Positions 34,339 to 59,652 of a DNA stretch of 64,000 nt are shown here, piece by piece (position 1 is the first letter of the stretch; each line of letters starts with the position of its first letter). Position numbers and translations under genes: made by a program. The stretch spans positions 62,001 through 126,000 of the forward strand of contig NZ_MOBR01000004.1 in NCBI RefSeq assembly GCF_003732705.1, in the 5' to 3' direction. The notes under the pieces are model-generated. The model was not told the DNA's origin and searched no databases. It was given only the letters and a program-made list of their open reading frames with translations. The DNA comes from Pseudomonas frederiksbergensis (GTDB lineage: Bacteria; Pseudomonadota; Gammaproteobacteria; Pseudomonadales; Pseudomonadaceae).

Positions 34339-36003
<1,665 letters not shown>

Positions 36004-36079
36004 GGAGAACCTTGGGTCAGTGACAGATGAATGATTGGAGCGCAGGCGAAGCCCGGGCCAGACTGTGCGCGTCTTCCGA

Positions 36080-36093
36080 TTGATAACTATCAA
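36080..36093. promoter_or_regulatory. Perfect ANR/FNR box between ettA and morA
   Basis: TTGATAACTATCAA matches the consensus TTGAT-N4-ATCAA at all ten positions and is extended to a 7-base palindrome by flanking A and T. It is 77 bases upstream of the ettA ATG and 197 upstream of the morA start. The remainder of the 286-base gap shows no strong promoter hexamers. Confidence 0.75.
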
Positions 36094-36289
36094 TAGGTGC
36101 ACGCTGAAAAAGTCTGATTCTAGGAGCTGGAACGCCCCCACGTAACCGGCAAAGCTACCTGAATGACCGATGGCAGTCCAGCCGGGAGGGGCTGGCACTT
36201 CGCCACAACTCAAGGCATGCTAGCCGCCCTCCGGGCGTCCGGCTTATAGTGCACGTCGCGCCAGTCCAGCCAAACCGCAGGATTTCAGT

Positions 36290-39200
36290 TTGTCTAATGT
36301 CACGCCGCCTCTTTCTACCCGTGCACCGGCTGCCGCGCTCGGCTCCCCCCTGCGCGGAACCCTGAAGGGCGCACTGGCGACACTCGTGCTGTTGCTGCTC
36401 GCGCTGCTGTTTTGGCAGCTGCTGGATCAACTGAGCGAAACCCAGAAAAACCAGCGCCAGTACACCATCGACTACACCGCCGACCTGGCCTCGCAAGTCA
36501 GTCTGAACATGGCGCTCAACGCGCAGATCGCCCTTAACCTGCTACCGATCGTCGAGCAACCGCAATCCGCCGACGAACAGCAGGCGCTGCTGCGCAAATT
36601 GCAGCAGTCGCTGCCCGACCTGCGCAGCCTGGCATTATTGAGCCCCTCCGGCAAAATCCTCAGCGACAGTGCCGCCGACAGCCAGGACGCCGACTACCTC
36701 AGCGATCTGGTGCGCCGCAGCCGAGCCCAGGCCCACTATTTCAGCAACGCCGACGATGGCTCCGTGGTGCACCTGCTGCTGCATCAGGCCAGCGGCAGCA
36801 GTCGCGGTTATTGGGCCTTGCGCCTGACCCCGACGTTTTTCTCCTCACTGACCAAACAGGGCGAAGCCGGCATCCGTCCGCTGTGGCTGGTGGAAAACCG
36901 CATCAATCATCAAATCGTCAGCCGCGATGAAGCCCTGCCCGCCACCCGTCAGGGCACGCTGAGCGACGATGACCTGGCCAACAGCGTACTGACCGTGCCG
37001 CTCAGCAGCAGCGACTGGCAACTGCGCGGGCTGTTCGACCGTCAACAGGTACTCGAACAACTGCTGCCGGCGTTTATCGGCAAATGCCTGCTGGGCCTGG
37101 CCTTCTCCCTGCTGCCGTTTATCGCCCTGTTGAGCATGCGTCGACGTCAGCGACAGCTGCATGAAGGGCGCCGCCGCTATCAGGACATTTTCGAAGGCAC
37201 CGGGGTTGCGCTTTGCGTGCTCGACCTGTCTGGGCTGCAAAGTTTTTTCGATAAGACACAGCTCACCAGCAGCGAACAACTGAAGGCCTGGCTCGACGTC
37301 CCTGAGCAACGCCAGCAACTGCTGCAAGAATTGCGCATCACCGAGGTCAACCAGGTCGCCCTGCAACTGCTCAACGTCAACTCCTGCGAGCAGGCCTGGA
37401 AACTGCTGATCGATGGCAGTCCGCTGGACGGCACCTCCATCGGCAACCCGATGCTGGAAGCCATGCTCAACCAGCAGAAACAACTCGAACTGGAAATCAA
37501 ACTCCAGGACACCCACGGCCGCGACCAGCACTTGTGGCTGGTGCTGCGCCTGCCGGAAGAGCAACACGACTACAAAGCGGTGATCCTGAGCATCAACGAC
37601 ATCACCAGCCGCAAGCTCGTCGAGCTGTCGCTGCTGGAGCGCGAAGGCTTCTGGTCTGACGTGGTGCGCACCGTGCCGGATCACCTGTATGTGCAGGACG
37701 TGATCAGCCAGCGGATGATTTTCAGCAACCACCATTTGGGGCAGACCCTGGGCTACAACCGCACCGAACTGCACCAGATGGGCGAGTATTTCTGGGAAAT
37801 CCTGCTGCATCCCGAAGATGCCGACTACTACCACCGTTCGCGCCAGAACCAGCGTCAGGCCGGTTTCTCGCAATTGCTGCAATGCCAGCTGCGCTTCCGT
37901 CACCGCGACGGCAAATGGCGGCGTTTTGACATTCGCGAACAGGCCCTGGCGCGGGACAAGCATGACCAGGTGACGCGCATCATCGGTGTGGCCAAAGACA
38001 TCACCGAGCAGATCGAGGCCAGCGAATCCCTGCGTGACAGTGAGCAGCGCTACCGCATGCTCGCCGAAAGCATCAGCGACGTGATTTTCTCCACCGATAA
38101 CAAACTGTCGCTCAATTACGTCAGCCCGTCGGTGCAAGCGGTACTCGGTTATGACGTGGACTGGATTTTCCAGAACGGCTGGCAATCGACCATCGCCAAC
38201 CCGCAACAACTGACCGGCATCTACGCGTTGATGGACCGGGTCAGCAAAGCCCTGGATAAACCCGATCAACTGGCGTTATTGCGCAGTCAGGTGCAAACCC
38301 AGTTGTTCCTGTTCGACTGCCTGCGGGCCGACGGCCGCAAGATCCCGATCGAGTTGCGACTGGTGCTGGTCTGGGACGAACACGGTGCCTTCGAAGGCGT
38401 GCTCGGGGTCGGTCGCGACATCAGCCAGCAGCGCCGCGCCGAGAAAGACCTGCGCATGGCGGCCACGGTATTCGAGCATTCGACTTCGGCGATCCTGATC
38501 ACCGACCCGGCCGGCTACATCGTCCAGGCCAACGAGGCGTTCAGTCGCGTCAGCGGGTATGCGGTGTCGCAGGTCCTCGATCAGTTGCCGAACATGCTCA
38601 CCGTCGATGAGCAGCAGGAAGCGCATCTGCGTTATGTGCTCAAGCAATTGCACCAGCACAGCACCTGGGAAGGCGAAGTCTGGCTCAAGCGCCGAAACGG
38701 CGAGCATTACCCGGCGTGGGTCGGCATCACGGCGGTGCTCGACGACGAAGGCGATCTGGCCAGTTACGTGTGCTTCTTCAGCGACATCAGCGAGCGCAAG
38801 GCCAGTGAACAGCGGATTCACCGTCTCGCTTACTACGACGCCCTGACCCACCTGCCCAACCGCACGCTGTTCCAGGATCGCCTGCACACCGCGCTGCAAT
38901 CGGCGGAACGGCAGAAGTCGTGGGTGGTGCTGATGTTCCTCGACCTGGACCGTTTCAAACCGATCAACGACTCCCTGGGCCACGCCGCCGGCGACCGCAT
39001 GCTCAAGGAAATGGCCACGCGCCTGCTCGGTTGCGTCGACGATGACGACACCGTGGCGCGCATGGGCGGCGATGAGTTCACGTTGTTGCTGCAACCGCGG
39101 ATCAACCGAGAAGTGGCGCTGAATCGGGCGATTCATGTGGCGGAACAGATTCTCGCCAGCCTGGTGAAACCGTTTGTGCTGGAAGGTCGCGAGTTCTTTG

Positions 39201-40138
39201 TCACGGCCAGTATCGGCATCGCCCTGAGCCCGCAGGACGGCAACGAACTCAGCCAGTTGATGAAGAACGCCGACACCGCGATGTATCACGCCAAGGAACG
39301 CGGCAAGAACAACTTCCAGTTCTATCAGGCTGACATGAACGCCAGCGCCCTGGAGCGTCTGGAGCTGGAAAGCGACTTGCGCCATGCCCTGGAGCAGGAC
39401 GAATTCGTGCTGTATTACCAGCCGCAATTCAGCGGCGACGGCAAACGCCTGACCGGCGCTGAAGCCCTGCTGCGTTGGCGCCATCCGCGTCGCGGGCTGG
39501 TGCCGCCGGGGGATTTCATCCCGGTGCTCGAAGAACTCGGGTTGGTGGTGGATGTCGGCGACTGGGTGATCAGCGAGGCCTGCCGTCAGCTCAAGACCTG
39601 GCATCAGGCCAAGGTGCGGGTGCCGAAGGTGTCGGTGAACATCTCGGCGCGGCAGTTCTCCGATGGTCAGCTCGGCACGCGCATCGCCAACATCCTCAAG
39701 GACACCGGCCTGCCACCGGCGTGTCTGGAGTTGGAGCTGACCGAAAGTATCCTGATGCGCGAAGTCAGCGAGGCGATGCAGATTCTCGCCGGGTTGAAAA
39801 ACCTGGGCCTGAGCATCGCAGTCGATGACTTCGGCACCGGTTATTCATCGCTCAACTACCTCAAGCAATTCCCGATCGATGTGCTGAAAATCGACCGCAC
39901 CTTCGTTGATGGCCTGCCGTCGGGCGAGCAGGATGCGCAGATTGCCCGGGCGATTATCGCCATGGCCCACAGCCTGAACCTGGCGGTGATCGCCGAGGGC
40001 GTGGAAACCCACGAGCAACTCGACTTCCTGCGTGAGCATGGTTGCGATGAGGTTCAGGGGTATCTGTTCGGGCGGCCGATGCCGGCGAGCCGGTTTGAGG
40101 CGCAGTTCAGCAATGATGCGCTGTTCATGTTCGATTGA
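36290..40138 (+). CDS. morA: MorA, membrane PAS-GGDEF-EAL c-di-GMP enzyme
   Basis: A 1282-residue protein. TM1 (about 28-45) and TM2 (about 266-285) bracket a periplasmic sensor region; several PAS/PAC units follow. GGDEF is intact at 926-930 and EAL at 1058-1060 (EALLRWRHP), with [10 protein letters not shown] later on. The usual inhibitory RxxD before GGDEF is DDDD here. It starts with TTG after AGGA at 36279-36282, inside which no better ATG keeps TM1. Identity as MorA comes from this layout and its place before glyA (PA4601-PA4602). It makes and degrades c-di-GMP to control flagella and biofilm. Confidence 0.9.
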
Positions 40139-57726: not shown

Positions 57727-59163
57727 TCAAATCTCCTTGGTCACGGTGTGGTCGGCATCGGCGTGATCGTCGTCGGCTGCGGACAGCGGACGAGCCGGCG
57801 TACGTTTCTGGCCAGGACCACCGTGGTTGGTTTCCTTGCCTTCGTCGATCTTCGGCCCTTTGCGCACCAGGCGCATCATGTAGCCCAGACCGGTGCCGAA
57901 CAGCGCGAAATACACCACCACGAACAACACCAGCGTAATGCTCATCTGCATGAAGCTATGGTTGGAGGACGCATCCGCCGTGCGCATCAACCCATAGACC
58001 ACCCACGGCTGACGCCCGATTTCAGTGGTGAACCAACCGGCGAGGATCGCGATCAGGCCGGACGGCCCCATCCACAGCGCCAGGTACAGGAACGGCCGCG
58101 AGGTATACAGCTTGTCGCTCTTGCGCAGCCACAGGCTCCACAAACCGGTGAAGATCATCAGGAAGCCCAGGCCGACCATGATCCGGAACGACCAGAACAC
58201 GATGGTCGAATTCGGCCGGTCTTCCGGCGGGAATTCCTTGAGCGCCGGCACCTGTTTATCCAGGGAGTGCGTGAGGATCAGGCTGCCGAGGTACGGAATC
58301 TCGACCGCGAATTTGGTCTTCTCGGCTTTCATGTCCGGCCAGCCGAACAGGATCAGCGGGGTCGGTTCATCCCCGACGTTTTCCCAGTGGCCTTCGATCG
58401 CCGCGATTTTCGCTGGCTGATGCTCGAGTGTATTGAGGCCGTGGAAGTCGCCGATAACGGCTTGAATGGGCGCAACGATCAACGCCATCCACATGGCCAT
58501 CGAGAGCATGGTGCGAATCGCCGGGTTGTCTTTGCCGCGCAGCAAGTGCCACGCCGCCGAGGAACCGACGAAAAACGCGGTCGCGACGAACGCGGCTGTC
58601 GACATGTGCAGCAGACGGTACGGGAACGACGGGTTGAAGATCACCGCCAGCCAGTCCACCGGAATGACCTGGCCATTGACGATTTCGTAACCCTGCGGGG
58701 TCTGCATCCAGCTGTTGGAGGCGAGAATCCAGAAGGTCGAGATCAGCGTGCCGATGGCCACCATGACCGTGGCGAAGAAGTGCAGCTTGCGTCCGACCTT
58801 GTTCCAGCCGAACAGCATGACGCCGAGGAAACCGGCTTCAAGGAAGAATGCGGTGAGCACTTCATAGGTCAGCAGCGGCCCGGTGACGGAACCGGCGAAG
58901 TCCGAGAAGCGACTCCAGTTGGTGCCGAACTGATAGGCCATGACGAGGCCGGAGACCACGCCCATGCCGAAGTTCACGGCAAAGATCTTCGACCAGAAGT
59001 GGTACAGATCGCGGTAGGTATCGTTGTGGGTTTTGAGCCACAGGCCTTCGAGTACCGCCAGGTAACTCGCCAGGCCAATGGTGATGGCCGGGAACAGGAT
59101 GTGGAACGAGATGGTGAACGCGAACTGCATCCGGGCGAGATCAAGTGCCTCCAAACCGAACAT
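57727..59163 (-). CDS. cioA: Cyanide-insensitive terminal oxidase subunit I CioA
   Basis: A 478-residue CydA-type subunit. GRQPW is at 383-387; GFHILFPAITIGLA-type N-terminal helices and the haem-ligand His and Met residues are present. The Q-loop is short, as in CIO oxidases, and the C terminus is hydrophilic (His/Asp rich). It oxidises ubiquinol with O2 and resists cyanide. A perfect ANR box is upstream. Confidence 0.94.
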   Translation of the reverse strand: MFGLEALDLARMQFAFTISFHILFPAITIGLASYLAVLEGLWLKTHNDTYRDLYHFWSKIFAVNFGMGVVSGLVMAYQFGTNWSRFSDFAGSVTGPLLTYEVLTAFFLEAGFLGVMLFGWNKVGRKLHFFATVMVAIGTLISTFWILASNSWMQTPQGYEIVNGQVIPVDWLAVIFNPSFPYRLLHMSTAAFVATAFFVGSSAAWHLLRGKDNPAIRTMLSMAMWMALIVAPIQAVIGDFHGLNTLEHQPAKIAAIEGHWENVGDEPTPLILFGWPDMKAEKTKFAVEIPYLGSLILTHSLDKQVPALKEFPPEDRPNSTIVFWSFRIMVGLGFLMIFTGLWSLWLRKSDKLYTSRPFLYLALWMGPSGLIAILAGWFTTEIGRQPWVVYGLMRTADASSNHSFMQMSITLVLFVVVYFALFGTGLGYMMRLVRKGPKIDEGKETNHGGPGQKRTPARPLSAADDDHADADHTVTKEI

Positions 59164-59328: not shown

Positions 59329-59342
59329 TTGATCTGGATCAA
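59329..59342. promoter_or_regulatory. cioA: Perfect ANR/FNR box upstream of cioA
   Basis: TTGATCTGGATCAA matches TTGAT-N4-ATCAA at all ten positions, 166 bases before the cioA ATG. ANR is known to affect cioAB of P. aeruginosa. A half-site (ATCAATT) follows at 59310-59316. The gap from 59164 to 59652 holds this box, a REPIN and no gene that I can support. Confidence 0.82.
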
Positions 59343-59443
59343 GCAACGTTGAAAGAGTAGTCCCATTTTTAACGATGGACGGTGTGGTCTTTTGCCGCGT
59401 GACAGGTTGCCTCATAGGTTTTGCAATCAGCCGCAACACATCC

Positions 59444-59539
59444 CCTGTGGGAGCGGGCTTGCTCGCGAAAGCGGTGTGTCAGTCGATATCAATTTGCCTG
59501 ACCCACCGCTTTCGCGAGCAAGCCCGCTCCCACAGGGGG
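59444..59539. repeat. REP doublet (REPIN), TGTGGGAGCGGGCTTGCTCGCGAA flavour
   Basis: Inverted REP pair in the cioA-MFS gap, nearly the same as 45911-46002. Confidence 0.92.
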
Positions 59540-59652
59540 ATGTCGGGGTTTTGGAGATCGGTGTCTAGCTACCTAAATTTTTTGTCAGCGCAACTTCTTG
59601 TTACAGCTTGGTGATAGTCTCAACCCTCCCCTCGCTCAAGACCTGCCTTCAG

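Follow-up and report, generated by a model that had tools for sequence, protein, structure and literature searches.

The ettA–morA intergenic region

The window analyzed here is a 64,000-nucleotide stretch of the Pseudomonas frederiksbergensis genome (assembly GCF_003732705.1, contig NZ_MOBR01000004.1, positions 62,001 to 126,000 of the forward strand), which harbors the divergently oriented genes ettA and morA. The ettA gene (34339–36003, minus strand, ATG at 36003) encodes the energy-dependent translational throttle protein, an ABC-F protein that scores 989.7 bits against the NCBIfam EttA equivalog NF008775 (cut-off 599). The plus-strand gene (36290–40138) begins with a TTG at 36290 and encodes a c-di-GMP enzyme with Pfam PAS, GGDEF, and EAL domains, which we take to be MorA. 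Both published qPCR primers for P. extremaustralis morA map inside the MorA orthologue, and the surrounding residues match, supporting the name.

The gap between the two genes contains an Anr/FNR-type box at 36080–36093, TTGATAACTATCAA, with no mismatches to the consensus TTGAT-N4-ATCAA. The distance from the box is 76 nt to the ATG of ettA and 196 nt to the start codon of morA. The initial annotation had described a full-consensus ANR/FNR box between divergent ettA and morA, and both the sequence at these positions and the identity of the flanking genes agree with it. Two exact consensus matches are present in the window as opposed to a mean of 0.09 in shuffled versions, of which 1 in 100 contained at least two.

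The only other exact match in the window, at 59329–59342, serves as an internal positive control. It precedes a cioA-type gene for cytochrome bd subunit I (57727–59163, minus strand; PF01654, 580.1 bits) by 165 nt, and cioA belongs to the core Anr-box genes in PMC6588701. An inverted repeat consisting of GGGAGCGGGCTTGCTCGCGAAAGC and its reverse complement was spotted by eye at 59440–59540 and resembles a Pseudomonas REP-type element.

The regulator and its candidate sites in the genome

A single protein encoded in the genome exceeds the Fnr cut-off (322.9 bits vs. 228) and is identified as Anr. It carries the cysteine cluster HCKDCSLAPLC near its N-terminus and the sequence ETVSR in its recognition helix, which we take to read TTGA. 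Five proteins, Anr among them, match HTH_Crp_2 above its cut-off. Two of the other four are full-length Crp/Fnr paralogues that differ from Anr in this helix, with SRQTTNQ and RRESVNE, respectively; one of the two remaining proteins is presumably Vfr.

The exact box occurs at 16 places in the 7.1 Mb genome. Inspection of the surroundings of the other 15 places nine of them within long ORFs, most of these being putative genes, while a tenth (L288) falls inside an ORF call whose start is probably too early. Because nine or ten of these 15 sit within long ORFs, an exact match says little by itself, and conservation among relatives therefore had to decide. Outside this group of ORF-internal matches, an exact box is found 65 nt upstream of hemN, and another precedes a gene with a Pfam Usp domain, where the called ORF overlaps the box via an earlier start. 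In this genome, exact boxes thus precede the hemN, Usp, and cytochrome bd genes.

Conservation of the box among relatives

Comparison with related gaps is a stronger test than the exact match, and judged from the aligned sequences, its outcome is positive. The named set comprises the best 80 of 326 and consists of close relatives; for further genus loci, a genome search matched 179 of 179 genomes, and 120 stretches among the matches listed were taken. Sixteen loci without a recognizable ettA start were excluded. Aligned gaps (sets of 116 and 134) share at least 60 8-mers with the gap of the window, the box included, and have the morA block within 240 nt, a selection that favors gaps like that of the window and excludes those bearing insertions. 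The counts on 116 aligned gaps, 97 boxes, and 200 sequences exclude loci that were fetched for the box (L111–L140) or for a primer match, while those on 134, 110, and 181 or 184 sequences, like the hairpin and insertion counts below, include such loci.

The initial annotation had proposed conservation in relatives as a check, and the box is indeed retained as TTGA-N6-TCAA in 81 of the 116 aligned gaps, with frequent loss as well; the strict form is present in 38 of the 116. Column identity in these gaps is 0.935 for TTGA/TCAA, 0.55 for the spacer, and 0.797 for 60 flanking columns. Parsimony counts for these three groups, in the same order, are 5.1, 26.3, and 6.5 steps per column; the TTGA/TCAA letters thus change about one fifth as often as the spacer. 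The contrast between core and spacer is 21.1 at 36080, the highest of all start positions scanned (36004–36275), and the next non-overlapping value is 13.6, at 36180. Columns adjoining the box (nine to the left and five to the right, picked by eye and post hoc) average about 11 steps vs. 5.1 in the core. Half-site positions 5 and 10 are variable, with 19 and 9 steps, respectively, and when they are included, the mean over the ten half-site positions is 6.9 steps, which is not below that of the flanks. This pattern, in which TTGA/TCAA is kept and the spacer is free, is as expected of a dyad operator.

The pattern TTGA-N6-TCAA is absent from 35 of the 116 aligned gaps, partly via changes in spacing. 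Among 200 distinct upstream sequences, 53 have the strict form, 44 the relaxed form, and 103 neither; a genus sample of 137 yields 21 strict and 29 relaxed forms, i.e., 50 with TTGA-N6-TCAA. Of 298 genus genomes, 54 have an exact box 55–85 nt from the ettA start, and one of these matches (G005) is chance-like. The reversed control for this count gives zero matches and is a weak control, as the ettA anchor is reversed as well. Across 119 genomes of the family, the relaxed pattern is present in 6 of 13 from the same genus and in 1 of 106 from other genera, counted with an anchor that is blind to different spacings or ettA starts. The lone match outside the genus lies in AT-rich sequence unlike an ettA start and is chance-like; the reversed control gives 1 of 119. 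Judged by this distribution, the box is a lineage-specific feature that has often decayed.

The distance from the box to the ettA ATG ranges from 59 to 84 nt among relatives. None of the 21 sequences lacking the morA block within 700 nt carries the box, where lacking means no match with at most one change, so that such blocks may be diverged and the genes not necessarily separated. The idea that the box travels with ettA when morA is distant is therefore not supported by these 21 sequences.

Candidate promoter signals toward morA

Promoter scores in both directions are rough, as the alignment was scored with approximate hexamer frequencies. A scan of the ettA–morA gap for strict sigma-70 consensus sequences returned no promoter. 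On the plus strand, a candidate −10 hexamer, GATTCT (36116–36121), starts 23 nt after the box and is predicted to belong to an Anr class II promoter toward morA. Two boxes of the same genome provide a calibration for this spacing; the −10 starts 23 nt past the box at hemN (TAGACT) and 24 nt past it at the Usp gene (TATAGT). An A2/T6 hexamer is found at offsets 22–24 toward morA in 76 of 97 gaps that have the box and were not selected for it, and in 88 of 110 when box-fetched loci are included. Such hexamers are just as common at offset 17 (76 of 110), and the −10 toward morA is weak, with a median score of −0.5. The spacing calibrated on hemN and the Usp gene suggests, by a slight preference, activation toward morA.

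FNR class II sites of E. coli combine the dyad TTGAT-N4-ATCAA with class II spacing to a −10 hexamer. The window box shares the dyad with them and, through its candidate −10 toward morA, may share the spacing; it differs in that this −10 is weak and predicted only.

Closer to morA lies a conserved noncoding block of about 95 nt (36189–36283, plus strand), which has the best plus-strand promoter score in the gap and is probably the proximal morA promoter region, with TATAGT at 36245–36250. In 134 aligned gaps, most of its columns are near 99% identity and some are at 50–80%; 11 columns of this block were used to choose the aligned sequences.

Candidate promoter and leader toward ettA

The best minus-strand score in the gap belongs to a predicted ettA promoter, P1 (36152–36180), composed of TGGACT (36180–36175), a spacing of 17 nt, and TAGCTT (36157–36152). 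Columns of the −10 block of P1 are 97–99% identical in 134 gaps, while the preceding 17-nt spacer is variable. The −35 position reads TGGACT in 111, TTGCCC in 41, TGGACC in 17, and TGGACG in 10 of 181 sequences. The presence of TAGCTT in 181 of 184 is circular, since TAGCTT is part of the motif by which the block was located, and it was not used as evidence. P1 would start transcription near 36145, which would place the box inside the ettA leader; at such a position, a bound protein acts as a block and not as an activator. The same leader may contain a candidate hairpin (36123–36138, minus strand) of the form GG(A/G)GC-TGGAAC-GC(T/C)CC. Its arms are GGAGC/GCTCC in 77 sequences, GGGGC/GCCCC in 19, and mixed in 8, an A-T/G-C exchange whose counts are uncorrected for relatedness; the window itself carries GGAGC/GCCCC, a mixed pair.

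No A2/T6 hexamer is found toward ettA at offsets 22–24 in 110 gaps, where the commonest hexamer at the class II offset is CCGGGC (35 of 110). A class II promoter in this direction is thus disfavored on spacing, and activation of ettA in this simple manner is not the preferred reading. At offset 43, an A2/T6 hexamer, mostly AATCAT, occurs in 41 of the 110 gaps. This would put the box near −62, which is a class I distance, and Anr might conceivably activate ettA with such class I-like spacing.

Insertions in the gap separate the box from one of its two neighbors. In nine sequences with insertions of about 140–270 nt between the box and P1, one of which (L120) was fetched for the box, the box stays 75–76 nt from ettA and is farther from morA; in a tenth, L073, the spacing of the box is lost. 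The insertions were inspected in L015, L016, L030, L064, and L073, and the other sequences were grouped by spacing alone. The constant distance to ettA suits a role at ettA at least as well as one at morA, and both models are possible. Two unrelated-looking kinds of insertion are seen in the five inspected sequences, and one of them has long inverted ends and is MITE-like.

Relation to known Anr control

Control of morA by Anr has been reported in P. extremaustralis, in which an Anr-box lies upstream of morA and the morA transcript is reduced in an anr mutant in microaerobic culture (Tribelli et al. 2013, PMC3797731). This result was cited again in 2019 in a study of the Pseudomonas Anr regulon, whose main text names morA once, in the discussion, and names neither ettA nor PA4595 (PMC6588701). 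The initial annotation had considered oxygen control of either gene to be new. For morA, this part of the claim falls to the 2013 report, while its reading of the box as an ANR/FNR site is probably right, given the consensus match, the encoded Anr, the exact boxes at hemN, Usp, and cytochrome bd genes, and the pattern of conservation. Since Anr control of morA had been reported before, the box is probably an extra control site. For ettA, no title or passage linking it with Anr or FNR was found among the candidate papers, most of which were judged by title.

Of 398 genomes, one (G160) contains an exact match to the forward morA primer. It also matches exactly the reverse morA primer and one pilG primer, the latter tried in seven genomes, and probably represents P. 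extremaustralis itself or a very near relative. Its ettA is about 10 kb from morA, with other genes between them. No TTGA-N6-TCAA is present near morA in G160, and the box is absent on the ettA side too. Within 300 nt of morA, the best candidate site, TTGCCACAAGTCAA at −87, has three mismatches to the consensus; its counterpart in the window, TCGCCACAACTCAA at 36200, has four. Because G160 lacks such a box near morA, the published P. extremaustralis site is probably a different one, and it probably lies in the conserved block ahead of morA. The published effect would thus require a site other than the present box or would be indirect. The genes adjoining morA in G160 (L149), judged by eye, are AlaX-like and LysE-like.

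The window therefore shares with the P. extremaustralis case (PMC3797731) the regulator, the morA gene, and an intergenic Anr-box preceding morA, and it differs in the site, which is probably another if the primer-matching G160 is a guide. With the Anr regulon described in PMC6588701, it shares TTGAT-N4-ATCAA boxes that are intergenic and within 300 nt of a start, as well as such boxes at the hemN, Usp, and cytochrome bd genes of its own genome; it differs in that the main text of that study includes neither ettA nor PA4595.

Proposed function and alternatives

The box is probably a genuine Anr-type operator. Its sequence, its pattern of conservation, the encoded Anr, and the promoter-like spacing are observations; binding of Anr at this position, the gene that responds, and the sign of its response are inferred. 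The best explanation, and our tentative first choice, is class II activation of morA by Anr with a possible hindrance of ettA. At low oxygen, Anr would bind the box in the divergent gap and, as a class II activator, would help RNA polymerase at the weak promoter with the −10 at 36116–36121 into morA. The Anr-dependent transcript would add to the output of morA's own conserved promoter region. Bound Anr may simultaneously hinder transcription of ettA, because the box may lie between P1 and the ettA start. Taken one by one, activation of morA from the box is plausible yet short of probable, a lowering of ettA is rather unlikely, and a raising of ettA is improbable.

The second choice is a block of ettA, in which Anr bound in the leader, some 50–65 nt downstream of the predicted start, would stop elongation and leave less EttA at low oxygen. 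The position of the box between P1 and ettA, the 97–99% identity of the P1 −10 block, and its best minus-strand score speak for this account, as does the covarying hairpin beside P1, which suggests transcription toward ettA, and the constant 75–76 nt to ettA when insertions displace morA. These points are offset by the status of P1 as a prediction and by the variation of the box-to-ATG distance (59–84 nt). Furthermore, in P. putida kept under anoxic electrode conditions, EttA protein had risen, not fallen, by 100 h (PMC11389600), an experiment that is no test of the box. Overall, an operator acting on ettA in this manner is unlikely. Use of the box by another regulator of a similar dyad, such as a Dnr-like or other Crp/Fnr protein, would be consistent with the five HTH_Crp_2 matches in the genome and with the Anr and Dnr consensus sequences being indistinguishable according to PMC6588701. 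Such a regulator has a low probability, given that only one protein passes the Fnr cut-off and that two of the other four HTH_Crp_2 proteins carry the helices SRQTTNQ and RRESVNE.

Two further accounts dispense with Anr at the box. A decaying or chance dyad would explain the absence of the pattern from 35 of 116 related gaps, the location of nine or ten of the other 15 genomic matches within long ORFs, and the ten half-site positions that evolve no more slowly than the flanks (6.9 vs. 6.5 steps). It would not account for a spacer that changes five-fold faster than TTGA/TCAA, a contrast that is maximal exactly at the box, adjoining columns (picked by eye) at about 11 steps vs. 5.1, and the 53 genus genomes of 298 that have an exact box near the start of ettA, a count with a weak reversed control; a box without function is accordingly judged quite unlikely. 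The dyad, a perfect inverted repeat whose loop is free to vary, also lies where transcription is possible, as would suit an RNA hairpin in a leader. Positions 5 and 10 are mostly non-pairing when they change, with C-A in 26 and G-A in 7 of 97 boxes, and the TTGA letters themselves are kept. A hairpin at the box is hence disfavored and very improbable, as such changes fit an FNR-type site and not a stem.

Biological implications

In an extended form of the class II activation of morA, a single Anr dimer would act as a two-way low-oxygen switch, turning morA on while blocking the ettA leader, with an origin in one lineage that is separate from the P. extremaustralis link. This combination is distinctly unlikely; if true, it would couple c-di-GMP signaling with a translation throttle. 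Should the box be functional, a large c-di-GMP enzyme, and perhaps EttA as well, would receive a direct low-oxygen input in these Pseudomonas species, and the Anr effect published for morA would depend on sites that differ from lineage to lineage.
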